NCBI RefSeq assembly: GCF_018327685.1
Contig: NZ_BNEL01000001.1
Coordinates: forward strand, 5,457,501-5,521,500
Direction: 5' to 3'
From: Streptomyces sp. TS71-3
GTDB taxonomy: Bacteria; Actinomycetota; Actinomycetes; Streptomycetales; Streptomycetaceae
Length of the DNA stretch: 64,000 nucleotides
The position numbers and the translations under genes were made by a program. The notes below the pieces were generated by a model. That model searched no databases. It saw nothing but the letters and a program-made list of their open reading frames with translations, and was not told the DNA's origin. Shown here in pieces: positions 28,840 through 42,906 of the stretch. Position 1 is the first letter of the stretch, and each line of letters opens with the position of its first letter.

Positions 28840-30161
28840 AAGAGTATCGGATCCAGGGTCGGCGCGCAGCCGAGATCGCCGCCAGCGTCGAACAGGCGGT
28901 CGGCGCCGGTGAGCTGCCGCCCGGCTCCCCGCTGCCGCCGATGCGCGAGCTGGCGGACCGGCTGGGCGTCAATCCGCACACGGTCGCGGCCGCCTACCGC
29001 ACCCTGCGCGAGCGCGGCGTCGTGGAGACAGCGGGCCGCCGGGGCACCCGGATCCGCCCCCGGCCGGCGACGACCTCCCGTGAGCTCGCCCGCGTCAGTG
29101 CCCCGCCCGGCGTCCGTGACGTCTCCCAGGGCAACCCGGACCCCGCCCTGCTGCCGTCGCTCTCAGAGGCGTTCGCGGCAGCCGCCGCGGAGGCCGACGC
29201 CCGCCCCGTGCTGTACGGCGAGAGCGCCGTGGACCCGGAGCTGGCCCGGCGGGCGCGCGCGGCCTTCGACGCCGACGGGGTGCCGCCCGGCCCCATCGCG
29301 GTCACGTCCGGTTCGCTGGACGCCGTCGAGCGGGTGCTGGCCGCCCACCTCAAGTCCGGTGACGCGGTCGCCGTCGAGGACCCCGGATGGGCCGCCCTGC
29401 TCGACCTGGTCCCCGCGCTCGGGCTGCGCACCGTCCCCGTGCGGGTCGACGAGGAGGGGCCGTTGCCCGCCTCCGTCGCCCAGGCCCTGCGGGGCGGGGC
29501 ACGCGCGATCGTCGTCACCGACCGGGCGCAGAACCCGCTCGGCGCCTCGATCGGCGCCGAGCGCGCCAAGGCCCTGCGGGCGGTGCTCGCGGACCACCCC
29601 GAGGTGCTGCTCATCGAGGACGACCACGGTCACGCCATCGTCGACCTGCCGCTGCATCCGCTTGCCACCGTGGCGCGCACCTGGGCGCTGGTCCGATCCG
29701 TCGCCAAGGCGCACGGCCCCGATCTCCGGCTGGCCGTCCTCACCGGGGACGCCGTCACCGTCGACCGGCTGCTCGGCCGGCAGCGGCTCGGCCCCGGGTG
29801 GGTCAGCCGCATCCAGCAGCGCGCCGTCGTCCACCTGTGGGAGCGCGGTGCGCTACGGCCGTCCGTCGCGGCCGCCTATGACAGGCGCCGGGCGGCCCTG
29901 ATCGCGGCGCTCGCCGAGCGGGGCGTGCCGGCACGGGGCCGCAGCGGCATGAACGTCTGGGTGCCGGTGCGCGACGAGACCGGTGCCGTGGCGCGGCTGC
30001 TGCACTCGGGCTGGGCGGTGGCACCGGGTGCGGCCTTCCGGTTGAACTCACCGCCCGGGATCCGCATCACCGTCTCCGGCCTGACCGCGGACGACGTCGA
30101 AGGGATCGCGGACGCCGTCGCGGTCGCCCTCGGGCCCGCGCCCGCGCGGCGCTACGACTGA
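28824..30161 (+). CDS. MocR-type GntR regulator with aminotransferase-like domain
   Basis: This 445-aa protein has an N-terminal GntR winged helix (LPPGSPLPPMRELADRLGVN, PHTVAAAYRTL) and a C-terminal domain of the type-I aminotransferase fold. That domain includes the PLP-lysine region RSVAKAHGPDLRLAVLTG, and K is kept. Members are PLP-binding regulators. ATG 28824 lies at the edge of a repeat; GTG 28833 (MLEEYRIQ) is an alternative start that matches how homologues begin. It is divergent from the two split-barrel flavoprotein genes, its likely targets. Confidence 0.88.
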   Translation: MLFVLEEYRIQGRRAAEIAASVEQAVGAGELPPGSPLPPMRELADRLGVNPHTVAAAYRTLRERGVVETAGRRGTRIRPRPATTSRELARVSAPPGVRDVSQGNPDPALLPSLSEAFAAAAAEADARPVLYGESAVDPELARRARAAFDADGVPPGPIAVTSGSLDAVERVLAAHLKSGDAVAVEDPGWAALLDLVPALGLRTVPVRVDEEGPLPASVAQALRGGARAIVVTDRAQNPLGASIGAERAKALRAVLADHPEVLLIEDDHGHAIVDLPLHPLATVARTWALVRSVAKAHGPDLRLAVLTGDAVTVDRLLGRQRLGPGWVSRIQQRAVVHLWERGALRPSVAAAYDRRRAALIAALAERGVPARGRSGMNVWVPVRDETGAVARLLHSGWAVAPGAAFRLNSPPGIRITVSGLTADDVEGIADAVAVALGPAPARRYD

Positions 30162-31321
30162 GACCGCCGTCCGGTCCGGCGCGGCCGGCCGGTTCCACGG
30201 GGCCGGGACTGCGTGAGGGCCGCGCCGGCGATCACTATCGCCGCGCCCACGGGCGTCGACCAGGTCAGCGACTCGCCGAGGACGGCGACGCCGGCGGCGG
30301 TGGCGATCACGGGGATGAAGTACGTGACCATCTGCGCGGTCGTCGGGCCGATCTCCAGGACGAGGCCGTACTGCACCAGCAGCGCGAACCCGGTGCCCAG
30401 CGCGCCCAGGGCGACCACGGCCAGCAGCGGCACCACCGCGAGGCGGGCGGGCACCGCGGTGAACAGCGGGGTGACGACGGCGAGCTGGACCGTCGCCATC
30501 AGGAGCTGCCCGCCCGTCATCGACAGATGGGAGTACCGGACACCCGCCAGGGTGCGCCGGACATAGATCCAGCCGACCGGGTAGCTCAGCGAGGCGAGCA
30601 GGGCCAGGGCCGTGCCCCGCGCATCCAGGCCGCTGAAGCCCTGCCAGGCACCGAGCACCGTCAGCACGCCGAGGAAGCCGAGGCCGAGCCCCGCGACCCG
30701 GCGCCGGGTGGGCCGGTCCTCGGAGAGCGCGACGAGGGACAGCACCATGCCCCACAGCGGGGACGTGGCGTTGCAGATCCCGGCCAGCGTGGACGGAATG
30801 GTCAGTTCCGCGAAGGCGAACAGGGAGAACGGCAGCGCGTTCAGCAGGAAGGCGGCGACCGCCAGATGGCCCCAGAGGCGGAGTCCGCGCGGCAGCCGCT
30901 CCCGCTTGACCGCCATCGCCACGGCCAGCACCGCGGTACCGAAGAACAACCTCCCGAACGTCACCTGAAAGGGTGCGTACGCCTGCGTGCCGACCTTGAT
31001 CAGAAGGAAGCTGAAGCCCCAGACGAGCGACAGCACGCCGAAGCGGAGGCGCCAGTCCAACGCCGGACGCGTGGCGGCGCGGGGACCCGAGGTCCGCGCG
31101 GACTGCGCGGCCGGGAGCCCCGAGCCGGGTGGGGCGGGCGGCCGAGGGTGCCCAGTGCCGGGCGCCCTGCGGCCCTCCTCCGCGGGCGGCGCGGACGCAG
31201 CGGGCGGCGTGGCAGGCGGCAGGTGCTCGGCGAGCCGCGCACCGGTGGCGGCTTCGGGCGTGGCCTCGGTGGACGGATGGGCGGCGGCTCCGTGCCCGGC
31301 GGCTCGGTGGGTGGGGGTCAT
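30152..31321 (-). CDS. EamA/DMT-family transporter
   Basis: This 389-aa protein has a disordered proline- and alanine-rich N-terminus of about 85 residues, then ten membrane helices in two EamA repeats (FGVLSLVWGFSFLLIKVG ... RLFFGTAVLAVAMAVKRERL; MVTYFIPVIATAAGVAVLGE). ATG 31321 is preferred over an in-frame upstream start because the latter would overlap the divergent lysR promoter. Its 3' end overlaps the convergent mocR gene by 10 nt. It is divergent from lysR, which likely controls it. Confidence 0.87.
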   Translation of the reverse strand: MTPTHRAAGHGAAAHPSTEATPEAATGARLAEHLPPATPPAASAPPAEEGRRAPGTGHPRPPAPPGSGLPAAQSARTSGPRAATRPALDWRLRFGVLSLVWGFSFLLIKVGTQAYAPFQVTFGRLFFGTAVLAVAMAVKRERLPRGLRLWGHLAVAAFLLNALPFSLFAFAELTIPSTLAGICNATSPLWGMVLSLVALSEDRPTRRRVAGLGLGFLGVLTVLGAWQGFSGLDARGTALALLASLSYPVGWIYVRRTLAGVRYSHLSMTGGQLLMATVQLAVVTPLFTAVPARLAVVPLLAVVALGALGTGFALLVQYGLVLEIGPTTAQMVTYFIPVIATAAGVAVLGESLTWSTPVGAAIVIAGAALTQSRPRGTGRPRRTGRRSQS

Positions 31322-31381
31322 GCCGTCAGCATGGAACGGTCCATGTGTTAGCACAAGCGAGATTTGTTTGCGGCAACCGCG

Positions 31382-31387
31382 TAGCAT
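31382..31387 (+). promoter_or_regulatory. -10 box for leaderless lysR
   Basis: TAGCAT ends 7 nt before the lysR ATG at 31395, which has no Shine-Dalgarno site, so transcription likely starts at the ATG. Upstream, TGTTAGCACAAGCGAGATTTGTTTGC holds T-N11-A-type half sites suited to LysR binding in the divergent gap. Confidence 0.5.
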
Positions 31388-31394
31388 CGCTTAG

Positions 31395-32303
31395 ATGTTG
31401 AACCTGGAGCGCCTTCGCACCCTCGACGCCCTCGCGCGGCACGGCTCGGTCAGCGGAGCCGCCGCGGGGCTGCATGTCACGACGTCCGCGGTCTCCCAGC
31501 AGATGACCAAGCTGGAGCGCGAGGTGGGCCAGCAACTCGTCGCCAAGAACGGCCGGGGGGTGCGTCTGACGGACGCCGGGCGGCTGCTCTCCGAGCACGC
31601 CGCGCGCATCCTCTCCCAGGTGGAGCTCGCGCAGTCAGACCTGGAGGCGCAGCGCGGCCAGGCCGTGGGGGAGCTGCGCATCGCGGCCTTCCCCACCGCG
31701 GCACGCGGCCTGCTGCCCGCCGCGGTCGCCTCGCTCCGCGGGCGGTACCCGGGCCTGCGGGTGCGCACGGCGGAGCTGGAGCCCGAGTACGGCGTGCGGG
31801 GCGTGGTCCGCGGCGATCAGGACCTGGCCGTCGTCCTCGACTGGCAGAACAAACCGCTGCCGCTGCCCGGCGGCCTGCTGAAGGCCGCGATCCTCGACGA
31901 CCCGGCGGACGTGGCCATGCCTCAGGCGCATCCGCTGGCGGACCGCGCGGAGCTGGACCTGGAGGATCTCGCGGACGACGAGTGGATCACCTGGCCCGAG
32001 GGCCAGTTCTGCCACGAGTGGCTGCTGTCGACGCTGCGCTCCAAGGGCTTCGAGCCGCGGATCGCGCACTGCGCGCAGGAGCACCCCACCCAGCTCGCGC
32101 TGGTCGCCTTGGGGCTCGGGGTCTGCGTGGCGCCCCGGCTGGGCCGCGACCCGGTGCCCGCGGGGGTGCGGACGGTCCCGGTGCGGCACCGGGTGCACCG
32201 CCACATCTACGTCGTCTGGCGGGCCGACGCCGACCGGCGCCCGTCGATCCGTGCCGCCGTCGACGCGCTCCGGCGGATCGCGGGCACGGAGGGCGGCGAG
32301 TAG
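31395..32303 (+). CDS. LysR-family transcriptional regulator
   Basis: This 302-aa LysR regulator has a complete N-terminal helix-turn-helix (LDALARHGSVSGAAAGLHVT, TSAVSQQMTKLEREVG) and a periplasmic-binding-like effector domain (LRIAAFPTAARGLLPAAV ... ). The divergent EamA exporter 73 bp away is the likely target, as in ArgP/LysG-type exporter pairs, where the regulator senses the exported amino acid. That analogy is an inference. Confidence 0.9.
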   Translation: MLNLERLRTLDALARHGSVSGAAAGLHVTTSAVSQQMTKLEREVGQQLVAKNGRGVRLTDAGRLLSEHAARILSQVELAQSDLEAQRGQAVGELRIAAFPTAARGLLPAAVASLRGRYPGLRVRTAELEPEYGVRGVVRGDQDLAVVLDWQNKPLPLPGGLLKAAILDDPADVAMPQAHPLADRAELDLEDLADDEWITWPEGQFCHEWLLSTLRSKGFEPRIAHCAQEHPTQLALVALGLGVCVAPRLGRDPVPAGVRTVPVRHRVHRHIYVVWRADADRRPSIRAAVDALRRIAGTEGGE

Positions 32304-32476
32304 GGCGGCTCGCGGCCGGCCCGATCGCACCCCCGGCCGGACATTTCGGGCAGGTTGGCCGGTGTTCCCCGCCTCGTGAGCGTTCGTGCCGGGTGCCCTG
32401 CCGGAGTGCTCCTCGGAAAGCGGCTCCGGAAGCCGCAGTCGGGGCGCTCGATGCGGAGCCCCGGCACGCCCCCCGT

Positions 32477-32529
32477 GGCCCGGCCCGTCCTGCCCGCCTC
32501 CCTGGTCCTGGCGGGTGGGACGGGCCGGG
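32477..32529. terminator. Bidirectional hairpin between lysR and Rieske gene
   Basis: GGCCCGTCCTGCCCGCC and GGCGGGTGGGACGGGCC form a 17-bp stem with two mismatches, located between convergent genes and ending just before the Rieske stop codon. Confidence 0.65.
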
Positions 32530-32532
32530 GGC

Positions 32533-33018
32533 TCAGGACAGCTTGATCTCGTCGCCCGAGACCTCGATCTTCATGGACTCCAGCGGGGACATCGCCGGCG
32601 GGTGCTTCACGCTGCCGTCCTCGATGGAGAACTTGCTGCCGTGGCAGGGGCAGTTGATCGTGCCGCCCGACACGCTCGCCACCGTGCACCCCTGGTGCGT
32701 GCAGGTGCTCGTGAACGCCTTGAAGTCGCCCTTCGTCGGCTGGGTCACCACGACCTGCTGCTCCTTGAAGACCTTCCCGCCACCCTCGGGGATGTCGCTG
32801 GTCTTGGCCAGCGGGCTCGCGGACCCCTTGCCCGAGCCCTTCGCGGAACCGGAGCCGGAAGCCGTTCCGGAGTCGGAGGCACCGGAGCCGGAGGCGTCGG
32901 AGCCTGGATCGCCGGATCCGCCACAGGCGGCGAGGGTGGCTGCCAGCCCCGCGGCTCCCGCGGCGGTGACGACCGCGCGGCGGGACGGGGACGTGAAGGA
33001 TTCGTGCGAAAGGCTCAT
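32533..33018 (-). CDS. Rieske [2Fe-2S] lipoprotein
   Basis: This 161-aa protein carries a twin-arginine-type signal (SRRAVVTAAGAAGLAATLAAC) ending in a lipobox cysteine. A Gly/Ser-rich linker of about 40 residues follows, then a Rieske domain with CTHQGC and CPCHGSKF, the two Cys-His pairs for the cluster. It should be exported folded by Tat and lipid-anchored outside the membrane. Such free-standing Rieske lipoproteins are common in Streptomyces; the electron partner is unknown and no oxygenase or cytochrome is adjacent. Confidence 0.9.
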   Translation of the reverse strand: MSLSHESFTSPSRRAVVTAAGAAGLAATLAACGGSGDPGSDASGSGASDSGTASGSGSAKGSGKGSASPLAKTSDIPEGGGKVFKEQQVVVTQPTKGDFKAFTSTCTHQGCTVASVSGGTINCPCHGSKFSIEDGSVKHPPAMSPLESMKIEVSGDEIKLS

Positions 33019-33314
33019 AGGTACTGCCTCCGTGCTCGGACGTGTGCGTCGGGCCGTGCAAGACGCCGGTGCCGGGGGCGGCAGCGGCGACGTACCTCAT
33101 ACGTACAGCGGCGGCCGTATGTTCAACGAGTCTTCGGCCGCGTGAGGTACGGCATATGCACCGAAGCGCCCGTAGTGCTCCTCATCCGCCCGTGCGCACG
33201 ACTCGGCGCCGGCCGAACGGGCGGCGGGGGAGCAGCGGCGGCCGGCGGCGTCCGGGCGCCGGTGGGCCGCCTGTGGCCGGCTTCGACGGCTGAGCAGGGG
33301 CGCGTCGACCGTGG

Positions 33315-33989
33315 TCAGCCGGTGTCGCCGAGCAGGGTTCGGCGGACGTGCCTGAGGTGGGCCTTCATCGCCTCACGGGCGGCATCGGCATCCCTCTCCC
33401 GGAGCGCGGCCACGATCTGTTCGTGTTCGCGGCAGTAGCTCTGGTGGCGCTCGGCGCCGAAGGTGCGCTTCTTCAGGCCGCCCCACACCGGCTGGCGGCG
33501 TGCGGCGATGAGCAGGGAGCTGACCTCGACGAGGACGGCGTTGTGCGTGGCGACGGCGAAGCTGTGGTGCAGGGCGGTGTCCCAGCGCTCGAACTCCTCC
33601 GAGGTGAGCGCCTTCTGCCCGCCGCGCAGGCAGCGCTCCATCTCGGCGAGGTCGGCGCCGGTCGCCGAGACGACGGCGAGGGGCATGAGCTCCGGTTCCA
33701 GGACCATGCGGGAGGCCATGATCTCGGAGGGGCTCGGCAGGTGGTCGCCGCCGCCCGGGGCCGCCGTCTCGTCGCGGGTGAGAAACGTGCCGCGGCCGAC
33801 GTGGCGCGTTACGACGCCTCGTTGCTCAAGGTCGTTCAGGGCCGCGCGGACCACGGCTCGGCTCACGCCTGTGGCGGCGGCGAGGTCGCGTTCGGTGGGC
33901 AACCGGTCCCCGGGCCCCAGGCCCGCCCTGTCGATGTGCCGCTCGACGTGCCGGACCACGGTGACGGCGGCCCCCACGAGGTCTTCCAT
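33315..33989 (-). CDS. FadR-type GntR regulator of the divergent catabolic operon
   Basis: This 224-aa protein has an N-terminal GntR winged helix (LGPGDRLPTERDLAAATGVS, RAVVRAALNDLEQRGVV) and an all-helical FCD effector domain (MVLEPELMPLAVV, WDTALHHSFAVATHNAVLVE, REHEQIVAAL) whose histidines and aspartate usually bind a metal and a carboxylate ligand. ATG 33989 is preferred because GGAAGG lies 10 nt upstream. A longer start at 34031 would place coding over an operator. It is divergent from the hydrolase fusion gene and probably represses it until a carboxylic-acid inducer binds. Confidence 0.88.
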   Translation of the reverse strand: MEDLVGAAVTVVRHVERHIDRAGLGPGDRLPTERDLAAATGVSRAVVRAALNDLEQRGVVTRHVGRGTFLTRDETAAPGGGDHLPSPSEIMASRMVLEPELMPLAVVSATGADLAEMERCLRGGQKALTSEEFERWDTALHHSFAVATHNAVLVEVSSLLIAARRQPVWGGLKKRTFGAERHQSYCREHEQIVAALRERDADAAREAMKAHLRHVRRTLLGDTG

Positions 33990-34016
33990 GACGTGCAGAA
34001 CCTTCCCGGCTGCATA

Positions 34017-34032
34017 ACCAATGTGAACCAAT
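34017..34032 (-). promoter_or_regulatory. Candidate operator 1 of the GntR regulator
   Basis: On the minus strand this reads ATTGGTTCACATTGGT, a direct repeat of ATTGGT spaced by four bases. It lies in the leader of the gntR gene. The same pattern recurs, on the opposite strand, at 34125. Confidence 0.6.
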
Positions 34033-34072
34033 AATAGCAGTCCAGGTTGCTATACCGGGAGTGTTGGAGCTG

Positions 34073-34101
34073 TTGACCCCGCTGAGGCGCCTCCCTACGC
34101 T
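34073..34101 (+). promoter_or_regulatory. Consensus promoter of the hydrolase-fusion operon
   Basis: TTGACC (34073-34078), a 17-bp spacer and TACGCT (34096-34101) form a near-perfect housekeeping-sigma promoter. The predicted start is near 34108, overlapping an extra ATTGGTG half site (34102-34107 region, minus strand TTATTGGTG). Confidence 0.75.
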
Positions 34102-34124
34102 CACCAATAAGGGCCGATGCGAAT

Positions 34125-34140
34125 ATTGGTCCATATTGGT
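34125..34140 (+). promoter_or_regulatory. Candidate operator 2 of the GntR regulator
   Basis: ATTGGTCCATATTGGT repeats the operator-1 pattern (ATTGGT-N4-ATTGGT) on the plus strand, between the predicted transcription start and the ribosome site at 34141-34147. A repressor here would block elongation or initiation. Confidence 0.62.
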
Positions 34141-34151
34141 TTGGAGGTTTG

Positions 34152-35813
34152 GTGCGGTACGCGAGGATTCACACCACGGACGGCGCCCGTGTCTGCGTTG
34201 TCGACGGACACGGAAGTGCCCACCCGGTCGGTTTCTCCGACACCGGGGAGCGGATCACCGAGCTCCAGCAGATCATCGCCGCCGGGCCGGGGGCCTCGTC
34301 GCGCCTGAGGGCGGAGGAGCGTCCGGCCGACGGAAAGCTGCTGGCACCGCTGACCCCGCACCGCAACGTCTTCTGCGTGGGGCGCAACTACACGGAGCAC
34401 GCGGCCGAGTTCGGCAGGAGCGGGTTCGACGCCACCGGGTCTGGCGACGGCCGGCACGTGCCGGAGCATCCCGTGGTGTTCACCAAGCCCGCGTCCTCGG
34501 TGATCGCCTCGGGTGACGCGATCGACCCGCACACGGACATCACCTCCGCGCTCGACTACGAGGGCGAGATCGGCGTCATCATCGGCCGCCGCTGCTCGAA
34601 GGTCGGCCGTGACGAGGCCATGCAGTACGTGTGGGGCTACACCCTCATCAACGACGTCACCGCGCGGGATCTGCAGCGCGACCACAAGCAGTGGTTCATC
34701 GGAAAGTCCCTCGACACCTTCTGCCCCGTGGGGCCGTGGGCGGTCACCGCGGACGAGGTCGACATCGCCGATCTCCGCTTGCAGACCCGGGTCAACGGCG
34801 AACTGCGCCAGGACGCCAGCACCGCCCAGCTGATCTTCGACGTGGCCACCGTCATCGAGACGCTGTCCGCGGGAATCACCCTGGAGCCCGGCGACGTGAT
34901 CGCGACCGGTACCCCGGTCGGTGTCGGCATCGGCTTCGACCCGCCGAAGTACCTGGCAACCGGCGACCAGGTGACCGTCTCCGCACCGGGCCTGGGCGAC
35001 CTCACCAACGTGGTCGGCCCCGTGACCGGAGGCGACTTGCTGGTGCCCGCCGCCTCCGCGCGGCTGTACGTGGAGAGGTCCGGGCAGGGCTCGCCCGTGG
35101 TCCTCATCCACGGCCTGGGCGGTGCGACCACCTTCTACGACCCCCAGGTGGCGGCCCTCGCCGAGGACCACACGGTGCTGCGCTACGACCTGTCGGGGCA
35201 CGGCCGCTCCCCGCGGGCCGGCGTTCCGAGCATCGAGGGCTGGGCGGACGAACTGCTGGCGCTCCTGGACGCCGAGGGCATCGAGGAGACCGCCGTCGTG
35301 GCCCATTCCATGGGCACGCTGGTCGCCTCCCGCTTCGCCGCGGCCCACCCGGGCCGGGTGACCAGGCTGGCCCTGCTGGGCCCGTTGCGCGCGCAGGGCG
35401 AGAAGGCCAAGGCGGCCACCCGTGCCCGTGCGCGTACGGTGCGGGAGGGCGGGATGTCGGCCGTCGCCGACACCATCGTCTCGGTGGCCACCTCTCCGGC
35501 GACGCGTGCCGAGCGGCCCCTGGCCGCGGCCCTGGTCCGCGAACTGCTGCTGGGCCAGGACGCCGAAGGCTACGCGCTGGCCTGCGAGGCGCTGGCCGCC
35601 GCGGAGGAGCCCGACTTCGCGGGCATCAAGGCCCCGGTCCTGCTGCTGACCGGCAGCGAGGACAAGACCAGCCCCGTGGCCCTGAACGACGAGATCGGCT
35701 CCCTGCTGGCCAGGGCGAGCCGGCGCGTGATCGAGCAGATCGGCCACTGGCACGCCCTGGAAGCGCCGCACGACGTCACGAGCGCACTGAAGGAGTTCCT
35801 CACCCAGTCCTGA
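34152..35813 (+). CDS. Fumarylacetoacetase-fold / alpha-beta-hydrolase fusion enzyme
   Basis: This 553-aa protein joins two enzymes. Residues about 60-290 are a fumarylacetoacetate hydrolase (FAH) domain with VGRNYTEHAAEF, metal ligands E137/E139 (DYEGEIGVIIG) and D168, the loop KSLDTFCPVGPW and GDVIATGTPVGVG. Residues about 305-553 are an alpha/beta hydrolase with nucleophile S386 in AHSMGTL, D504 in GSEDKTSP and H532 in GHWHALEAP, closest by eye to 3-oxoadipate enol-lactonases. Both active sites look intact, so it may act on two successive ring-cleavage or acylpyruvate-type intermediates. GTG 34152 follows TTGGAGG closely; TTG 34149 is the alternative. It is co-transcribed with the amidohydrolase. 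Confidence 0.9.
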   Translation: MRYARIHTTDGARVCVVDGHGSAHPVGFSDTGERITELQQIIAAGPGASSRLRAEERPADGKLLAPLTPHRNVFCVGRNYTEHAAEFGRSGFDATGSGDGRHVPEHPVVFTKPASSVIASGDAIDPHTDITSALDYEGEIGVIIGRRCSKVGRDEAMQYVWGYTLINDVTARDLQRDHKQWFIGKSLDTFCPVGPWAVTADEVDIADLRLQTRVNGELRQDASTAQLIFDVATVIETLSAGITLEPGDVIATGTPVGVGIGFDPPKYLATGDQVTVSAPGLGDLTNVVGPVTGGDLLVPAASARLYVERSGQGSPVVLIHGLGGATTFYDPQVAALAEDHTVLRYDLSGHGRSPRAGVPSIEGWADELLALLDAEGIEETAVVAHSMGTLVASRFAAAHPGRVTRLALLGPLRAQGEKAKAATRARARTVREGGMSAVADTIVSVATSPATRAERPLAAALVRELLLGQDAEGYALACEALAAAEEPDFAGIKAPVLLLTGSEDKTSPVALNDEIGSLLARASRRVIEQIGHWHALEAPHDVTSALKEFLTQS

Positions 35814-35844
35814 CCTCTGCTGGTCCGAAAGGAAGATGACGACG

Positions 35845-37128
35845 ATGTCACCGAGCACGTCGACCCTGTTCACGAACGTACGCGTCTTCGACTCCAGTGG
35901 CGACCAGCCTTTCGCGGGCGAGGTCGTGGTGAGCGGCGAGCGCATCGTCGAGGTCCACCATGGCAGCGGCGCCGCGGCCCGCGAGGGCGCCCGCGTCGTC
36001 GACGGACACGGCCGGTTCCTCATGTCCGGCCTGTGTGACGCGCACACGCACTTCTCCTGGATCAACTCCGCCGACCTGCCGGGACTCGGGCGCCTGGGAG
36101 TCGAGGAGCACACCCTCCTGTCGGCGAAGTCGGCCCTGACCTACCTCGACTCGGGCTACACGATGTGCGTCGGAGCGGCCTCCGCGAAGCCGCGACTGGA
36201 CGTCGTGATCCGCAACTCGATCAACGAAGGACTGATCCGCGGCCCCCGCTACCTGGCCAACTGCCAGGAGATCGCCGTCACCGGCGGTGACCTCATCGAG
36301 GGCATCACCGCGTTCGCCGACGGGCCCGAGGAAATGCGCAAGGCGGTACGCCGCAACGTCGCCCACGGCGCCGACCTGGTCAAGCTGAGCATGTCAGGGG
36401 AGGAGATCACCGGCGACAAGCACGCCGAGGACAACTACTTCTCCGACGAGGAGGTGCTCGCGGTCACCACCGAGGCCCACCGGCGCGGGCTTCGGGTGTG
36501 CTCCCACGCCCGCTCGGCGGAGAGCGTGAAGATGTCGCTGCGCAACAACGTCGACATCATCTACCACGCCAGCTTCATCGACGACGAAGGCATGGACATG
36601 CTGGAGGCCAAGAAGGACGAGGTGTTCGTCGCACCCGGTCTGAACTGGCTTGTCGCGACGCTGCATGACGCCGCGGAGTTCGGCTACCCGCCGGCGGCCG
36701 CCGAAGCGGCCGGGTACAAGCACGAACTGGACTGCGCCATCGCCGGACTCCAGGAGATGCGCCGGCGCGGCATCCGGGTCCTGCCCGGTGGCGACTACGG
36801 ATTCGCCTGGACCCCGCACGGCACCTACGCCCGCGACCTCCAGCACTTCGTCGAGCTGCTCGGGTACACGCCGATGGAGACCCTGCTCGCCGCCACCAGG
36901 CTGGGCGGCGAGATCATGCGGATGCCCGACGAGCTCGGGCAGGTCAAGCCCGGCTTCTACGCCGACCTGATTCTCGTCGACGGAGACCCGCTGGAGGACA
37001 TCGGCGTCCTGCGGAGCCGGGACCGCATCGTCGGCATCATGAAGGGTGGCGACTTCCACAAGGATCCTGACACCGGAGCCACGGGGGATACGTCCCCCCT
37101 CGCCGGCGGATCCGTGATCACCGCCTGA
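35845..37128 (+). CDS. Metal-dependent amidohydrolase
   Basis: This 427-aa member of the amidohydrolase superfamily (imidazolonepropionase/prolidase-like group) has H67 and H69 in DAHTHF, the carboxylatable K180 in DLVKLSMSG, H221 (CSHA), H241 (YHAS) and D317 (PGGDYGF), a complete binuclear-type metal site. It should hydrolyse an amide, lactam or cyclic imide. ATG 35845 lies 11 nt after AAAGGA; ATG 35836 would be too close. It starts 31 nt after the fusion gene, so they form one operon under the GntR regulator. The substrate is unknown. Confidence 0.9.
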   Translation: MSPSTSTLFTNVRVFDSSGDQPFAGEVVVSGERIVEVHHGSGAAAREGARVVDGHGRFLMSGLCDAHTHFSWINSADLPGLGRLGVEEHTLLSAKSALTYLDSGYTMCVGAASAKPRLDVVIRNSINEGLIRGPRYLANCQEIAVTGGDLIEGITAFADGPEEMRKAVRRNVAHGADLVKLSMSGEEITGDKHAEDNYFSDEEVLAVTTEAHRRGLRVCSHARSAESVKMSLRNNVDIIYHASFIDDEGMDMLEAKKDEVFVAPGLNWLVATLHDAAEFGYPPAAAEAAGYKHELDCAIAGLQEMRRRGIRVLPGGDYGFAWTPHGTYARDLQHFVELLGYTPMETLLAATRLGGEIMRMPDELGQVKPGFYADLILVDGDPLEDIGVLRSRDRIVGIMKGGDFHKDPDTGATGDTSPLAGGSVITA

Positions 37129-37139
37129 CCCACCGGACT

Positions 37140-37178
37140 CCGGTGCCCTCGCGCCTTGATCCGGCGCGGGGGCACCGG
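37140..37178 (+). terminator. Terminator of the hydrolase/amidohydrolase operon
   Basis: CCGGTGCCCTCGCGCC, loop TTGATCC, then GGCGCGGGGGCACCGG forms a 16-bp stem with one G-U pair, 12 nt after the amidohydrolase stop. Confidence 0.8.
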
Positions 37179-37249
37179 CGCGTCCGGCTCCCGCTTGAGG
37201 CGATCACCGCTAGCTCTCCCGCCCGCCCCTCGCGTGGTGATCGCTGCCC

Positions 37250-37465
37250 TCACATGACGATGCGGACCTTCAGCGCCGAGCGGTCGTCCATCGCCCGGTA
37301 GCCGTCCGGCACGCCGTTCAAGCCGACCGTGTGGTCGAAGAGGGGGCCCGGGTCCATGACGCCCTCCAACACGTCGTGAAGCAGCTCGGGGAGGTAGGCG
37401 CGGGCGGGGGCACGCCCCCTGCGAGCGTGATGTCGCGGTCGAACATCTCGCCGCCCGCCCCCAGG
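37250..37465 (-). pseudogene. Zinc alcohol dehydrogenase remnant (C-terminus, frameshifted)
   Basis: Reading on the minus strand, one frame gives GGEMFDRDITLAGGV and another continues ARAYLPELLHDVLEGVMDPG and TVGLNGVPDGYRAMDDRSALK, the typical C-terminal end of Zn-dependent alcohol dehydrogenases. The switch occurs near a G/C run around 37415. The N-terminal catalytic domain is absent. This is a dead fragment, not a gene. Confidence 0.75.
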
Positions 37466-37484
37466 CGCCGAGACACGCATCCCG

Positions 37485-37888
37485 CAGATCGACCCGATGG
37501 TCGCCGTACTGCGCGGAGACCACCCCGCGGCCGACCCCGAAGAGGGCCCGATCGAGCTGCGGGAGCTGGCAGGCGCCTCCTGGATCGCCGCCCCCGCCCA
37601 GACAGCGTGTGGTGATGCGTTCCTTCAGGCCTGCCGCTCGGCAGGCTTCGCCCCGCGGATACGGCACATCTGCACCGGCTCTCCGCCATGGCCGCTCTGG
37701 CCGCGAGCGGTGGCCATCCGGCCCTCATCCCCCGCCTGGCCGCGGCACATCTGCCGCTCTTGCTGACCACACGTCCTGTGGCGGACGGCAGCCTCGCCCG
37801 CACGACCGGGATTGCGGTCAGGCACGGCACGGCGCGTGAGCCCGAAATCGTTGCCGGCCTGAAATCGCTCCAAACCATGCGTAGCTGA
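37485..37888 (+). pseudogene. LysR regulator remnant (effector domain, frameshifted)
   Basis: The frame from about 37485 reads MVAVLRGDHPAA ... IELRELAGASWIAAPAQTAC ... FLQACRSAGFAPRIRH, which is the substrate-binding half of a LysR regulator. It then shifts near 37690 to the frame MAALAASGGHPALIPRLAAA ... VRHGTAREPEIVAGL, which completes the domain. The DNA-binding N-terminus is missing. It abuts the dehydrogenase remnant head to head, suggesting a deletion removed the middle of a former regulator/dehydrogenase pair. Confidence 0.7.
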
Positions 37889-38251
37889 CAGCGGTGGAAA
37901 AGATTCTCCCTCCATGCCCCGTCTCCGACAGCGTTCCGAAGGACGGCTTCCGCCGCTGCGACGCGCCTACGCCCTGATCATGCCGGAGCAGGGGAGCCCG
38001 CGGTGACGCCGGCACGATGGCTCCGGTGCTCGTCCCCGGCTGTCACGCTTGGTCACTATGCTCACTTCATGCCGAAGGCCGGAAGCAGGGGCCGCACCGC
38101 CATGGATGGACCGCTGGGGAGACACGGAGACGAGCATGCCGATGGAAACTCCCCGGATTCTCCCCGGGGCTGGTCGGGGAGGCCTTCCCGGATGGCACCA
38201 CGTTCGCGTTGCCGTGGCATGCAAGGTAAACGAGTCGTGGAGCCTTGAGAG
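37889..38251. other. 363-bp region without a supported gene
   Basis: TATGCT at 38057-38062 lies 6 nt before an ATG (38069) opening a 59-codon frame with basic, low-information content. This might be a leaderless small gene, but codon bias does not support it over two overlapping frames. More likely this is the promoter and leader of the HipA-like gene. Nothing else is recognised. Confidence 0.35.
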
Positions 38252-39079
38252 ATGCTGACAGAAGTCGCTGCCACCCGCTACATCACGCCCCTGCGTGAGG
38301 GCGGCTCGCTGCCCGGTCTCGTCGAGGCGGACGACCGGGCCACCTACGTGGTGAAGTTCACCGGTGCGGGACAGGGCCGCAAGACCCTGGTCGCCGAGGC
38401 GATCTGCGCCCGGCTCGCCCGGGGCCTTGGCCTGCGTGTCCCCCCACTCGTCACGGTCCGGCTGGATCCGGTGCTCGGCCTGGGCGAGCCCGACCCCGAG
38501 GTGCAGGACCTGCTCAAGGCCAGCGGCGGGCTCAACCTCGGCGTGGGCTACCTCTCCGGCGCCCTCGGCTTCGACCCGCTCGCGTACGGCGTGGAGCCCC
38601 GGGAGGCCGGCCGTATCGTGTGGTTCGACGCGTGGGTGGGCAACGTCGACCGGTCCTGGCGGAACCCCAACATGCTCGTCCGGGGGCAGGACCTCTGGCT
38701 GATCGACCACGGCGCCACCATGATCTGGCACCACAACTGGCCGACCGTCCAGACCGCCGCCGCCCGCCCCTATGACGCCTCCGACCACGCGCTGGCCGGC
38801 TTCGAGCCGGATGTCGCGGCCGCCGCCGCCGAGCTGGCTCCCGGTGTCACCCCCGAACTGCTCGCCGAGGCCACCGCCGACGTCCCGGACGCCTGGCTGG
38901 CCGACGAGGCGGGCTTCGGCAGCCCCGACGAGGTGCGCGAGGCGTATGCCTCCGCGCTCCTCGCGCGCGCCGCGACCGTCCACGAGCACATCACCCTGGG
39001 CCGGCCGCCCGGCGCCCGGCCCGTCGGCTCCTCGGGCTGGCTCCCCGCCGGCCCCGCAACCACCGGCGAGGCCTCATGA
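38252..39079 (+). CDS. HipA-family kinase-like protein
   Basis: This 275-aa protein matches the short HipA-like kinase family rather than toxin HipA itself. It has a putative ATP lysine K35 in TYVVKFTGAGQGRKTL, a catalytic-loop segment FDAWVGNVDRSWRNPNML (D133, N138/N140 region) and the metal aspartate D152 in LIDHGATMIW. It therefore could be an active serine/threonine or small-molecule kinase. Its stop overlaps the start of a DUF3037 gene (ATGA). No HipB-type antitoxin is nearby. The pair is known in many bacteria without an assigned role. Confidence 0.83.
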   Translation: MLTEVAATRYITPLREGGSLPGLVEADDRATYVVKFTGAGQGRKTLVAEAICARLARGLGLRVPPLVTVRLDPVLGLGEPDPEVQDLLKASGGLNLGVGYLSGALGFDPLAYGVEPREAGRIVWFDAWVGNVDRSWRNPNMLVRGQDLWLIDHGATMIWHHNWPTVQTAAARPYDASDHALAGFEPDVAAAAAELAPGVTPELLAEATADVPDAWLADEAGFGSPDEVREAYASALLARAATVHEHITLGRPPGARPVGSSGWLPAGPATTGEAS

Positions 39080-39459
39080 GCGACCGGAGCGTCTTCGAGT
39101 ACGCGCTGCTGCGCGTCGTGCCGCGGGTGGAGCGGGGCGAGCTGATCAACGCCGGTGTGATCGTCTACTGCCGCGCGCACGGATACGTCGCTGCGCGCAC
39201 CCACCTCGACGAGGCCAGACTGAGGGCGCTCGACCCCGCAGTGGACCTCACCGGCGTGCGCGCCGCCCTGGTGGCCGTGGAGCGCGTCTGCCAGGGCGGC
39301 GAGGGGGCGGGGGAGGCCGGCCGGGACGACGCCGGGCGCCGCTTCCGCTGGCTGATCGCCCCCCGCTCCACCGTCGTACAGCCGGGCCCCGTGCACACCG
39401 GGCTCACGGACGACCCCGAGGCCGAGGCGGAGCGGCTGCTCGACCTCCTGGTGAGGTGA
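39076..39459 (+). CDS. DUF3037 protein, partner of HipA-like kinase
   Basis: This 127-aa protein has the DUF3037 features FEYALLRVVPRVERGELINA, GVIVYCRAHGYVAAR and a C-terminal WLIAPRSTVVQPGPVHTGLT. It overlaps the kinase gene by 4 nt, so the two are translationally coupled and probably act together, perhaps as kinase and target or inhibitor. The function is unknown. Confidence 0.85.
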   Translation: MSDRSVFEYALLRVVPRVERGELINAGVIVYCRAHGYVAARTHLDEARLRALDPAVDLTGVRAALVAVERVCQGGEGAGEAGRDDAGRRFRWLIAPRSTVVQPGPVHTGLTDDPEAEAERLLDLLVR

Positions 39460-39507
39460 GGCCGGCGCGCGCCGGGGAGCGAAGGGGGCACGCCGCCCGG
39501 CGTGCCG

Positions 39508-39536
39508 TTGACACCGGGTGCCGCGGCTTCTAGCGT
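39508..39536 (+). promoter_or_regulatory. Consensus promoter of the SDR operon
   Basis: TTGACA, a 17-bp spacer and TAGCGT is one of the best promoter matches in the window. It predicts a start near 39543 and a leader of about 110 nt. Confidence 0.75.
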
Positions 39537-39554
39537 CACGCCTACCGAAGGTAC

Positions 39555-39568
39555 TAAGCGGTCGCTCA
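39555..39568. promoter_or_regulatory. Candidate TetR-type operator below the SDR promoter
   Basis: TAAGCGGTCGCTCA contains the inverted arms AGCG/CGCT around GT, just downstream of the predicted start. Similar AAGCGGTCGCT sites often precede fatty-acid genes under TetR control in actinomycetes, from memory. No TetR gene is adjacent. Confidence 0.45.
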
Positions 39569-39652
39569 CCCCGTGGGGACCGCGCCGGACCCGCTGTCCT
39601 GGGAGCAGGAACGGCAGGAACGGCAGGGACGACCGGAATGAGGAGAAGCTGA

Positions 39653-40414
39653 ATGTCCACCACTGAGCAGCGCGTCGCGATCGTCACCGGTGCCGCGCGC
39701 GGCATCGGCGCCGCCACCGCGGTACGGCTGGCCGCGGACGGTCGCGCGGTAGCCGTGCTCGACCTCGACGAGGGTGCCTGCGAGGACACCGTCGAGAAGA
39801 TCACCGCCGCCGGCGGCAGGGCGCTCGCGGTGGGCTGCGACGTCAGCGACGAGGAGCAGGTGGCCTCGGCGGTCCAGCGCGTCGCGGACGGTCTCGGCGC
39901 GCCGACGATCCTCGTGAACAACGCCGGGGTGCTCCGCGACAACCTCCTGTTCAAGATGAGCGTGTCCGACTGGGACACGGTGCTCGGCGTCCACCTGCGC
40001 GGCGCCTTCCTGATGTCCCGCGCGGCACAGAAGCACATGGTGGACTCCGCGTTCGGCCGCATCGTCAACCTGTCGTCGTCCTCGGCGCTCGGCAACCGCG
40101 GCCAGGTGAACTACGCCGCGGCCAAGGCCGGCATGCAGGGCTTCACGAAGACCCTGGCCAAGGAGCTGGGGAAGTTCGGCGTCACCGCCAACTCCGTCGC
40201 CCCCGGCTTCATCGCCACCGAGATGACCAAGTCGACCGCGGAGCGCGTCGGCATGGGCTTCGAGGACTTCCAGGCCGCGGCCGCCACGCAGATCCCCGTC
40301 CAGCGCGTCGGGCAGCCCGAGGACGTCGCCAACGCCATCGCCTTCTTCACGGGCGACGCGGCCGGCTTCGTCTCCGGGCAGGTCCTGTACGTGGCCGGCG
40401 GCCCGCTCAACTGA
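39653..40414 (+). CDS. Short-chain dehydrogenase/reductase (FabG-like)
   Basis: This 253-aa SDR has a Rossmann loop TGAARGIG, NNAG, catalytic Ser in LSSSSALGN, and YAAAK (Y-x3-K), plus the family end PEDVANAIAFF. It is close to 3-oxoacyl-ACP/CoA reductases and should reduce or oxidise a 3-hydroxy/3-oxoacyl substrate with NAD(P). It is first in a two-gene operon with another SDR, 17 nt apart, behind a consensus promoter. AGGAGAAGC precedes the ATG. Confidence 0.9.
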   Translation: MSTTEQRVAIVTGAARGIGAATAVRLAADGRAVAVLDLDEGACEDTVEKITAAGGRALAVGCDVSDEEQVASAVQRVADGLGAPTILVNNAGVLRDNLLFKMSVSDWDTVLGVHLRGAFLMSRAAQKHMVDSAFGRIVNLSSSSALGNRGQVNYAAAKAGMQGFTKTLAKELGKFGVTANSVAPGFIATEMTKSTAERVGMGFEDFQAAAATQIPVQRVGQPEDVANAIAFFTGDAAGFVSGQVLYVAGGPLN

Positions 40415-40431
40415 TCGCGAGGAAGACCCCA

Positions 40432-41187
40432 ATGACACAGCAGGACAGCGGCAAGGTCGCGCTGATCACCGGCGCGAGCCGCGGCATCGGCTACGGAGTG
40501 GCGCAGGCGCTGGTGGCCCGCGGAGACCGGGTCTGCATCACGGGCCGGGGCGAGGAGGCCCTCAAGGAGGCCGCCGAGAAGCTGGGCGCGGACCGCGCGC
40601 TGGCCGTGCCCGGCAAGGCGCACGACGAGGCGCACCAGGCGCTCGCCGTCGAGCGCACCATGGAGACCTTCGGCAGGATCGACTTCCTCATCAACAACGC
40701 GGGCACCAACCCCGTGTTCGGGCCGATGGCCGACATGGACCTGGGCGTCGCGCGCAAGGTCTACGAGACCAACGTCATCTCGGCGCTCGGCTTCGCCCAG
40801 CGCACCTGGAAGGCGTGGCAGCAGGAGAACGGCGGCGTGATCGTCAACATCGCCTCCATAGCGGGCGTCGGTGCGTCCCCCTTCGTCGGCGCCTACGGCA
40901 TGAGCAAGGCCGCGATGATCAACCTGACCCTCCAGCTCGCGCACGAGTTCGCCCCGCGGGTGAGGGTCAACGCCATCGCGCCGGGAGTGGTCAAGACCCG
41001 CTTCGCGAAGGCCCTGTACGAGGGCCGCGAGGAGGAGGCGGCCGCTGCCTACCCGCTGGGCCGGCTCGGCGTGCCCGAGGACGTCGGCGGCGCGGCGGCC
41101 TTCCTCACCTCGGACCAGTCGGAGTGGATCACCGGCCAGACCCTGGTGGTGGACGGCGGCATCTTCCTCAACGCGGGTGTCAGCTGA
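40432..41187 (+). CDS. Short-chain dehydrogenase/reductase
   Basis: This 251-aa SDR has TGASRGIG, NNAG, IASIAGVG (Ser) and YGMSK (Y-x3-K), with the ending PEDVGGAAAFLTSDQSEWITGQ. It is a separate subfamily from the preceding SDR (low overall similarity), so the operon encodes two different oxidoreductases, perhaps for consecutive steps of fatty-acid or related metabolism. GAGGAAG lies upstream of the ATG. Confidence 0.9.
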   Translation: MTQQDSGKVALITGASRGIGYGVAQALVARGDRVCITGRGEEALKEAAEKLGADRALAVPGKAHDEAHQALAVERTMETFGRIDFLINNAGTNPVFGPMADMDLGVARKVYETNVISALGFAQRTWKAWQQENGGVIVNIASIAGVGASPFVGAYGMSKAAMINLTLQLAHEFAPRVRVNAIAPGVVKTRFAKALYEGREEEAAAAYPLGRLGVPEDVGGAAAFLTSDQSEWITGQTLVVDGGIFLNAGVS

Positions 41188-41325
41188 CCGGCCGGTAACC
41201 CTCGACACGCGTTCTCTCCTCGATAGGTGACTACCCCTCACCTTTGCCGGGGTGCGGCGGATCGGGCGGCTCGGCGCTGCGGTATCGTCGGCCGACTCAT
41301 GGCGTGACCTGATCGAGGAGAGCGC

Positions 41326-42906
41326 GTGTTCAACCGGATCCGATGTGTACGGCCCCTTGCCGCGACCGTCTCCATATCCGTGCTTGCCGGATGTGGGCTC
41401 ATGTCTTCGGACGACGCCGGTCACGGACAGCAGATCGCCGTGGGAACGACCAGCGCCCCCAGCACGCTGGACCCCGCAGCAGCCTGGGACGGCTCGTGGG
41501 AGCTGTTCCGGAACATCTACCAGACGCTGCTCGCCTACCCTGACGGCGCCACGCAGCCCAAGCCGGACGCCGCCGAGAACTGCAGGTTCACGGATTCCGG
41601 AAAGCGCACCTACCGGTGCACGCTCCGCTCGGACATGACGTTCTCCAACGGGGACACGCTCGACGCGCAGGCCGTCAAGTACTCCATGGACCGGATAGGC
41701 AAGATCAACGCGCCGGGCGGTCCCGCCGGACTGCTGGGCAGCCTTGACCGGGTCGAGACCAAGGGCGACTCGGTGGTGCTCTTCAAGCTCAAGAAGCCCG
41801 ACGCCACCTTCCCGTTCGTCCTGGCCACGCCGGCCATGTCCATCGTCGACCCGGCGGAGTACCCGCCCGACGCGGTCCGCAAGGGCAACGAGGTCACGGC
41901 CTCGGGACCGTACACGCTGAAGAGCTACGTCGCCGGCAAGCAGGCCGTGCTGGCCAGGAACGAGAGTTACAAGGGCCCGGCCCGGCTGAAGAACGACGGC
42001 ACCACGATCCGCTACTTCCAGGACTCCCACGAAATGGTCCGGGCCCTGAAGAAGAAGCAGATCGACGTCACCGTGCGCGGCCTGGCCGCGGACGACATCG
42101 TGGCGCTCAAGAGCGGTGAGTCGCAGGAGGGCATCCAGCTGATCGAGGAGGCCGGCACGGAGACCAGCTACCTCGTCTTCAACCCGAAGGACCCGTGGGC
42201 CGGCAAGCTCCCGGTGCGCAGGGCGATCGCCCAGCTCATCGACCGGGGCGCCATCGCGGACAAGGTCTACCAGGGCACCGTCGAGCCGCTCTACTCGATG
42301 ATCCCGAAGGGGGTCGTGGGCCACACCGCCGGGTTCTTCGACGAGTACGGCAAGGCCAGCGCCTCCAAGGCCCGCTCGATCCTCACCGACGCGGGCATCA
42401 CCAAGCCCGTGCCGCTCACCCTGTGGTACACCTCGGACCGGTACGGCTCGGCGACCCAGCCGATGTTCGAGGAGATCAAGAGCCAGCTCGACGGCTCGGG
42501 CCTGTTCACGGTCACGCTCAAGAGCCGCCCCTGGACGGAGTTCGAGGCGGGTTACCAGAAGGGCGAGTACCCGGTGTTCGGGCGCGGCTGGTCGCCCGAC
42601 TTCCCCGACCCGGACGACTTCGTCACGCCCTTCGTGGGGGACCAGAACGCCCTCGGCACCCCCTACGAGTCGCCGCGGATGACCGACGAGCTGCTGCCGG
42701 AGTCCCGCGAGGAGAGCGACCGCGGCGAGGCCGTGCAGGCCTTCGAGCAGATCCAGGAGATCATGCTCCAGGACGCGCGGCTGCTGCCGCTGTGGCAGAG
42801 CAAGCTGTTCGTGGCGGCGAGCGAGGAGATCTCCGGCGCCGAGAGCGCCTTCGACTCGGGTTCGATCATGGACATGTGGGAGCTGGGCCGGAAGACGAGC
42901 TGGTAG
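41326..42906 (+). CDS. Family 5 substrate-binding lipoprotein (oligopeptide/nickel type)
   Basis: This 526-aa lipoprotein has a short signal with lipobox LAGC and a family-5 (SBP_bac_5) binding domain: TLDPAAAWDGSWELFRNIYQ, TYRCTLRSDMTFSNGDTLDA, ASGPYTLKSYVAG and LFVFNPKDPWAGKLPVRRAI-type segments. It delivers peptides, nickel or other solutes to an ABC permease. No permease or ATPase gene is adjacent, so it is an orphan that may use a shared transporter or act as a sensor. GTG start after GAGGAGAGC. Confidence 0.9.
   Translation: MFNRIRCVRPLAATVSISVLAGCGLMSSDDAGHGQQIAVGTTSAPSTLDPAAAWDGSWELFRNIYQTLLAYPDGATQPKPDAAENCRFTDSGKRTYRCTLRSDMTFSNGDTLDAQAVKYSMDRIGKINAPGGPAGLLGSLDRVETKGDSVVLFKLKKPDATFPFVLATPAMSIVDPAEYPPDAVRKGNEVTASGPYTLKSYVAGKQAVLARNESYKGPARLKNDGTTIRYFQDSHEMVRALKKKQIDVTVRGLAADDIVALKSGESQEGIQLIEEAGTETSYLVFNPKDPWAGKLPVRRAIAQLIDRGAIADKVYQGTVEPLYSMIPKGVVGHTAGFFDEYGKASASKARSILTDAGITKPVPLTLWYTSDRYGSATQPMFEEIKSQLDGSGLFTVTLKSRPWTEFEAGYQKGEYPVFGRGWSPDFPDPDDFVTPFVGDQNALGTPYESPRMTDELLPESREESDRGEAVQAFEQIQEIMLQDARLLPLWQSKLFVAASEEISGAESAFDSGSIMDMWELGRKTSW

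Follow-up and report, generated by a model that had tools for sequence, protein, structure and literature searches.

A putative self-regulated catabolic divergon in Streptomyces sp. TS71-3 with a FAH-alpha/beta-hydrolase fusion, an amidohydrolase and conserved ATTGGT-type operators

Layout of the locus

We analysed a 64,000-nucleotide stretch (hereafter the window) of contig NZ_BNEL01000001.1 from the 9.79-Mb genome of Streptomyces sp. TS71-3. The subject of this analysis is a compact divergon situated between a Rieske-protein gene (32533-33018, minus strand) and a HipA-like kinase gene (38252-39079). On the minus strand it encodes a GntR regulator of the FCD type and, on the plus strand, an in-frame fusion of a fumarylacetoacetate hydrolase (FAH) domain with an alpha/beta-hydrolase (ABH) domain, followed by an amidohydrolase (AH) (Table 1). 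Once the starts of regulator and fusion are corrected, the intergenic region measures 162 bp. We read the divergon as a catabolic module that would repress itself and whose enzymes would act in series, on the grounds of its conserved operators and of the repeated linkage of the same genes in other taxa.

Table 1. Features of the divergon, with positions in the window
Feature	Position	Strand	Basis
FCD-domain GntR (FadR-type) regulator, 224 aa	33315..33989	-	PF00392 and PF07729 over cut-off; listed reading frame extends to 34031, likely start ATG 33989
Putative operator site 1, ATTGGTTCACATTGGT	34017..34032	-	one of two exact genome matches
Possible gntR -10, TATTAT	34031-34036	-	overlapped by operator site 1
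Promoter of enzyme genes, TTGACC-N17-TACGCT	34073..34101	+	TTGAC kept in 19/19 orthologous regions
Putative operator site 2, at presumed start point; one exact and one degenerate half-site	34103..34118	-	2-mismatch match
Putative operator site 3, ATTGGTCCATATTGGT, in interval between start point and ribosome-binding site	34125..34140	+	other exact genome match
Ribosome-binding site GGAGG ahead of GTG 34152	34143..34147	+	sequence
Fusion protein of 553 aa, with a short linker joining an FAH domain to a PcaD-like alpha/beta-hydrolase domain	34152..35813	+	PF01557, PF00561
Amidohydrolase, 430 aa	35836..37128	+	PF01979 (E 5e-19); ligand residue census
16-bp GC-rich hairpin 3' of amidohydrolase, probable transcript end, no T-run	37140..37178	+	-43.1 kcal/mol, z -5.4 for 37125-37185

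Domains, conserved residues and fold

In the fusion protein PF01557 covers residues 74-289 (E 3e-73) and PF00561 residues 316-539 (E 6e-23), numbered from TTG 34149. The corrected start is GTG 34152; the catalytic residues are numbered from it, so that an alignment of 13 homologues, which counts from TTG 34149, runs one higher. The FAH metal ligands (E137, E139, D168), the NYxxHxxE motif (N79, Y80, H83, E86) and the ABH triad in the order Ser-Asp-His (S386, D504, H532) are all present and invariant in the 13 aligned homologues. The His and Glu of the NYxxHxxE motif have a catalytic role. The AH holds the full binuclear-type ligand set H70, H72, K183, H224, H244 and D320. Among the 120 relatives listed, each of these is conserved in 119 or 120; in a second set, retrieved with the AH part of the fungal protein P0118, the figure is 107-118 of 119, with 11 of the cases at H70/H72 being unaligned ends. 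An earlier interpretation, made from the letters of the window and hereafter called the sequence-only reading, had described the FAH site and the ABH triad as intact and the AH as having all its metal ligands; the residues that it named for the two sites of the fusion are exact.

The structure model of the fusion (mean pLDDT 85, pTM 0.54) is good within the domains and leaves their arrangement open. Its fold matches include YisK, Cg1458, FAHD1 and 8gsr/8gst, and, for the ABH half, the enol-lactonase 2xua and 4uhc. By sequence and fold together the structures nearest to the FAH half are YisK, EaFAH, Cg1458, fumarylpyruvate hydrolase and the acylpyruvase FAHD1, while its best NCBIfam match is 2,4-didehydro-3-deoxy-L-rhamnonate hydrolase (NF053535; 166.1 bits, below the cut-off of 500). 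The nearest single-function NCBIfam model of the ABH half is 3-oxoadipate enol-lactonase (PcaD, TIGR02427), with 156.5 bits against a cut-off of 255.85; HsaD and BphD score 60 and 31 bits. In a tree the AH forms a clade of its own near prolidase- and imidazolonepropionase-like amidohydrolases, and the relatives of known structure closest to it hydrolyse amides or peptides. Its structure model (mean pLDDT 66.5) was left out of the fold search. Against the Xaa-Pro dipeptidase model (NF051886) the AH scores 209 bits, below the cut-off of 500. Since no NCBIfam row reaches its cut-off for regulator, fusion or AH (among the best 25 rows for regulator and fusion), no named function applies to the three proteins.

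Regulator, promoters and operators

The regulator joins an N-terminal GntR winged helix-turn-helix domain (PF00392, 69.1 bits, cut-off 27) to a C-terminal FCD domain (PF07729, 82.5 bits, cut-off 24.3). Its start is probably ATG 33989: in four Streptomyces-type loci (L009, L010, L066, L067) the homology starts at residue 14-15 of the listed reading frame. In several other loci the homology reaches residue 1, but the extra codons there overlie the conserved operator.

The repeat ATTGGT-N4-ATTGGT has two exact matches in the 9,790,272 bases of the genome, namely sites 1 and 3, and the reversed control has none; the window has seven ATTGGT/ACCAAT half-sites, five of them in the intergenic region of the divergon. 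Both repeats had been placed exactly by the sequence-only reading, and the half-site that it noticed at the start point is joined by a degenerate one to form site 2. On the enzyme side, the site 3 form WTTGGT-N4-ATTGGT occurs with at most one mismatch in 18 of 19 orthologous regions and exactly in 15 of 18 relatives. On the regulator side, the site 1 form ACCAAT-N4-ACCAAT is exact in 13 of the 18 relatives, a count taken from that comparison only (the borders of the 19-region set clip site 1 in several loci). Site 2 is a degenerate direct repeat, and ACCAATANNNACCGA is found within one mismatch in 15 of the 19 regions. A search for WTTGGT-N4-ATTGGT in 20 chosen genomes, of which 16 have the module or its FAH and four do not, gave 34 matches: 28 at the module promoter and six elsewhere (one of these in a module-less genome), compared with four for the reversed control. 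Two of the 16 (G831 and G116) have no exact match.

The enzyme promoter had been called near-perfect, which overstates it: the TTGAC is kept throughout the orthologous regions, but the -10 TACGCT matches TATAAT in three of six positions and a scan for TATAAT-type consensus promoters did not recover it. Similarly, the strong terminator proposed after the AH corresponds to a hairpin that is indeed very stable, but one that lacks a T-run and is not among the predictions of a terminator scan. Site 1 lies over the possible gntR -10 and site 2 at the enzyme start point. The natural reading would be that transcription is repressed in both directions and that a metabolite relieves it.

Linkage of the three enzymes across taxa

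We compared 14 relative loci that have a complete fusion, two of them belonging to one genome. The regulator is divergent in every one, and the AH comes directly next in 13, two of these being truncated at a contig end. Most of the fusion query is found in 16 plasmid records. All of them belong to the 21 plasmid records with an AH relative, 18 of which have FAH and a homologous ABH nearby. Twelve of the 16 were opened: ten annotated records (Corynebacterium, two Paraburkholderia, Caballeronia, Cupriavidus, two Azospirillum, Pantoea, Pseudomonas and Variovorax) and two unannotated ones (H3, H13), for which tblastn was used. In all 12 the FAH and ABH occupy distinct frames with AH next, a DUF1636 gene intervening once, and in the other four the match coordinates place AH beside the fusion-query matches. 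An FCD/GntR gene adjoins the block in nine of the ten annotated records, on the same strand in Corynebacterium; Variovorax is the one without. The Firmicutes Alicyclobacillus and Priestia have FAH, FadR, a homologous ABH and AH together in another gene order. Variovorax paradoxus VAI-C (L058, L089) has three AH-matching places: one module contains a tandem pair of them, and the third lies in another FAH-ABH-AH module.

Fungi carry the linkage further. With the AH part of P0118 as query, the best 120 of 213 matches were examined by a hand count of precomputed domains, and 85 of the 120 matches listed, ascomycete proteins of ~1,060 aa, have all three domain types (PF01979, PF01557 and ABH) in one protein. 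When we scanned six proteins for domains ourselves, four contained all three, arranged as AH-FAH-ABH; in A. parasiticus P0293 (1067 aa), AH spans 111-453, FAH 551-764 and ABH 821-1052. In Rhodotorula toruloides AH and FAH-ABH bear consecutive locus numbers (NBRC10512_005634, NBRC10512_005635). The double fusion is one stage in a series that runs from operon to double to triple fusion. Given the repeated linkage and the fusion, we strongly infer that a single small compound is processed by the three enzymes in succession, and very probably they serve one short pathway. Two predicted proteins, P0295 (Aspergillus oryzae) and P0333 (Fusarium sp. AF-6), have an extra Fungal_trans domain; they are probably gene models running into an adjacent transcription factor, possibly a fungal counterpart of the GntR regulator.

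The other neighbours vary. The AH is accompanied by sugar-type ABC transporters in Paraburkholderia, Caballeronia and Peteryoungia, and elsewhere the module adjoins branched-chain amino acid (BCAA)-type ABC transporter, MFS, short-chain dehydrogenase (SDR) or aldo/keto reductase genes. Apart from the module genes, the families that recur in the shared-neighbour clusters occur in few loci only.

Distribution and history of the fusion

A search with the fusion protein gave 1,921 matches, of which the best 120 were examined. Among the matches listed are full-length fusions at 68-80% identity in records of Streptomyces, Nonomuraea, Yinghuangia, Rhodococcus, Nocardia and Williamsia, and fungal full-length fusions (named records) at 43-47%. 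The distribution across genomes is patchy: the full fusion occurs in the genome studied here and two others among 392 of the same genus, at least one complete copy occurs in ten of 401 genomes of a second family (a match of any kind in 12), and in a phylum sample of 396 genomes the fusion is present only in our own. At E <= 1e-130 the AH was likewise found only in our own genome among 296 of the phylum. Six phage records match the FAH part, none of them covering 80% of the query.

The domains are fused in many homologues, though separate in others, and the fusion is genuine, as had been proposed; a stop codon lost through sequencing error is ruled out, because the fusion recurs in independent genomes. 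A 37-row tree places the main fusions of Actinobacteria and fungi on one side (99/96 support), and the separate genes and four further fusions on the other. A single origin of all fusions is unsupported: the labels on this tree need three changes, and the starred branches force at least two. Since the fusion is common to Actinobacteria and fungi, transfer between kingdoms is implied; in the AH tree the fungal P0118 is nested in the actinobacterial group (100/99), where its placement next to Corynebacterium is modestly supported (86/82). Two FAH-only genes (L010 10001-10954 and L080 9334-10257) share the divergent regulator and have C-terminal tails that resemble the fusion linker, as if the ABH domain had been lost; genes for UbiD and a P450 reductase lie near the former.

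Proposed function and alternatives

Our preferred reading, to which we give a probability of about 0.58, is that of a mobile, substrate-inducible, self-repressed catabolic cassette with three serial enzymes. The GntR/FCD protein would repress itself and the enzymes via the three ATTGGT-type sites over the divergent promoters, and would probably be released by a pathway intermediate that binds the FCD domain. The amidohydrolase-fold enzyme would open or cleave a ring substrate; the PcaD-like serine hydrolase would next hydrolyse an enol-ester, lactone or N-acyl group of the AH product; and the FAH domain would act last, splitting an acylpyruvate (a 2,4-dioxo acid) to give pyruvate plus a small acid. 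The sequence-only reading had already spoken of a compact, self-regulated catabolic module, which the conserved operators and the repeated gene linkage support as a prediction. The function is supported in outline, and the assignment of a substrate is a guess.

The substrate class is most likely an already hydroxylated heterocycle like a 4-pyranone or 4-pyridone, a leading guess and working hypothesis drawn by analogy with the lower 4-hydroxypyridine (kpi) pathway. The accessible text on this pathway describes, in Arthrobacter sp. IN13, a kpi cluster for 4-hydroxypyridine catabolism with a FadR regulator, KpiC, KpiB and KpiD. KpiC, a ring-opening enzyme of the amidohydrolase family, converts 3,4-dihydroxypyridine to a product heavier by 32, KpiB is the alpha/beta-hydrolase of the step after KpiC, and KpiD, an FAH protein that could not be expressed, is proposed to cleave 3-formylpyruvate to pyruvate (PMC7356986). 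A cluster of the same-genus genome G116 (L081 5057-13417) encodes a FAD_binding_3 monooxygenase, an Amidohydro_1 protein of 475 aa, RidA, ABH, FAH, FadR and a cytosine/purine-type permease. It is kpi-like by family content and gene sizes, that is, by resemblance and not by comparison with the Arthrobacter sequences, and likely serves hydroxypyridine catabolism. Identity to the window proteins is 59% for the FAH of this cluster and 57% for its regulator; GGTTCACATTGGT precedes its fah, an operator copy that is no more than suggestive. A second kpi-like island, on a plasmid of Rhodococcus rhodochrous BX2 (L102 8078-14249), holds GntR, a kpi-type AH that is 52% identical to that of G116, an HpaB-like monooxygenase (a type different from that in G116), ABH, RidA and FAH, with transposases on both sides. 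In G1015, FAH and regulator lie ~3 kb from a permease that is 44% identical to that of G116 and to which Pfam assigns no family. The window AH has an Arg at H-x-R (R226) and no Glu before H244, features common to three kpi-type AHs and absent from six other AHs (two of them near-identical).

A more specific version has the AH not as an amidase but as a KpiC-type ring-cleaving enzyme for 3-hydroxy-4-pyranones (of the kojic acid, pyromeconic acid or maltol type) or 3-hydroxy-4-pyridone, which would yield an enol-formate or N-formyl product; the ABH would deformylate this, the FAH would cleave the acylpyruvate to pyruvate and formate or glycolate, and the whole would be a self-sufficient route of three enzymes, new to the literature, that has spread across bacterial phyla and into fungi, with ascomycetes having it as a single polypeptide of three activities. 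We hold this version to be doubtful. Pyranones are preferred over pyridones solely because the AH of three genera has sugar-type ABC transporters next to it, and no degradation genes appear among the kojic acid papers listed by the literature search, so that the pyranone idea has no support from that side.

Those same transporters, placed after the AH, would also suit a sugar-acid route, in which AH and ABH are lactonases acting on a sugar lactone and the FAH is a 2,4-diketo-3-deoxy-sugar-acid hydrolase yielding pyruvate and lactate or glycolate. The top NCBIfam match of the FAH half and the presence of the structures of that rhamnonate hydrolase, 8gsr/8gst, among the fold matches point the same way, as do the SDR genes that recur near some modules (two here, 2.5 kb downstream). 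Yet the match reaches 166 bits where 500 are called for, the shared core has neither dehydratase nor dehydrogenase, and elsewhere BCAA-type ABC or MFS transporters take the place of the sugar ABC systems; we find this route rather unlikely. The proposal of the sequence-only reading, in which a lactam or imide is the target of ring opening by the AH, with the fusion cleaving the acyl product, appears improbable. It accords with the full binuclear-type ligands of the AH and with its solved relatives among amide and peptide hydrolases, but nothing in particular supports a cyclic amide or imide: no NCBIfam row reaches its cut-off, the AH is a clade of its own that lacks the Glu before H244 found in the six other AHs compared, and the neighbours vary, with no amine- or ammonia-handling gene recurring in the shared neighbour clusters or annotated next to the module in the ten plasmid records. 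A lower aromatic route of meta-cleavage type, with the ABH as C-C hydrolase, the FAH as hydratase or decarboxylase and the AH removing a side amide, would account for the HpaG-type matches of the FAH and the meta-cleavage hydrolase matches of the ABH. It is very improbable in view of the preference of the ABH for PcaD (157 bits, against 60 for HsaD and 31 for BphD) and of the absence of annotated ring-cleaving dioxygenases from the 9-kb flanks in the ten plasmid records with annotation.

Several observations count against the preferred reading of a serial cassette and its kpi analogy. The activities of the module enzymes are predictions from sequence. G831 has the module but no exact operator match, and the operator copy in G116 is a 3-mismatch match, one of six there, with two in the reversed control. 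The linkage has exceptions: G292 lacks an AH within the 20 kb taken, Peteryoungia pairs the FAH with a different ABH family (an Abhydrolase_3 protein), and in R. opacus (L084) and Massilia (L085) an AH relative occurs without FAH and ABH partners. FAH-only relatives exist, some of them with the same divergent regulator (L010, L080; unfused in G116), and so the FAH can serve without a fused ABH; two others, P0063 and P0064, are at 75-76% nearer to the window FAH than that of G116. The AH and ABH of the window are 28-30% and 25% identical to those of the two kpi-like clusters (KpiC itself was not compared), and the kpi-like FAH of R. rhodochrous BX2 is just 37% identical. Module and kpi AHs separate from the six others at 92/90 with long-branch warnings, the module AH being a separate clade, of which Massilia is a member that carries Gln at R226. 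Finally, the transporters next to the module differ, so the substrate may differ too. No monooxygenase or permease occurs among the window genes scanned (30152-42906); the nearest FAD_binding_3 protein found, a monooxygenase at 46133-47365, 9 kb downstream of the module, is 29% identical to that of G116.

The module set is present in Actinobacteria, Proteobacteria, Firmicutes and fungi, each enzyme comes from a known superfamily, and no characterised pathway was found for it. The series from operon through double to triple fusion strongly predicts consecutive reactions, and the operator is unusually clean (two exact sites in the whole genome), so that one reporter could screen for inducer and substrate. 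Should the ring-cleavage reading hold true, it would add another oxygen-dependent enzyme on the amidohydrolase scaffold and give a function to the ascomycete protein of ~1,060 aa.

Origin of the locus

The HipA-like gene was compared in 11 relatives. A Rieske gene adjoins it in three (L109, L110, L111), with ~215-410 bp between the aligned ends, and in the other eight no Rieske match occurs within its 1.5-kb flank. Here the interval between the two genes is 5.2 kb. The module was most likely acquired. The interval includes a disrupted LysR substrate-binding fragment (37431-37763, plus strand; PF03466, E 1.9e-9) between module and HipA-like gene. By eye, 38048-38110 (plus strand) resembles the C-terminus of a tyrosine recombinase and 37253-37624 (minus strand) the end of a zinc alcohol dehydrogenase; Pfam gives no match for either. 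The two SDR genes downstream of the module form a tandem pair at 39653-41187.

Comparison with known systems

The sequence-only reading had called the divergon undescribed-looking. This stands in that no characterised pathway with the fusion was found in the literature, by a search that covered few subscription journals, but the fused architecture itself already has a name: NCBI and UniRef records, up to 80% identical among those named, are called 'bifunctional fumarylacetoacetate hydrolase/alpha/beta hydrolase family protein', a database name that comes without function, partner or pathway. In the accessible parts of further papers, the riboflavin/lumichrome pathway (PMC12746152), which has an unassigned FAH gene, was rejected as a candidate, nothing there matching the module. 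Those on salicylate in A. terreus (PMC7842363) and on A. oryzae RNA-seq (PMC9394295) held nothing relevant. Fusarium has an FAH-family gene induced by 2-benzoxazolinone, FVEG_03394 (PMC10512309).

Among single proteins, YisK (8sky/8sut; the best by sequence and fold), Cg1458, the acylpyruvase FAHD1 and fumarylpyruvate hydrolase share the FAH fold and metal site. Unlike the window protein they are single-domain, and together with EaFAH they show 29-43% identity over the FAH part (fold rows). The 3-oxoadipate enol-lactonase PcaD is the nearest single-function family of the ABH half, with 2xua as fold match; the ABH half scores below its equivalog cut-off, however, and is fused to FAH, not to PcaC. 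The nearest characterised analogue of the module as a whole, by analogy of its parts, is kpi. To the extent that the accessible text describes it, kpi differs in that its genes are unfused and include a monooxygenase and a permease, whereas both systems draw on the same four families: FadR regulator, amidohydrolase-fold enzyme, alpha/beta-hydrolase and FAH.

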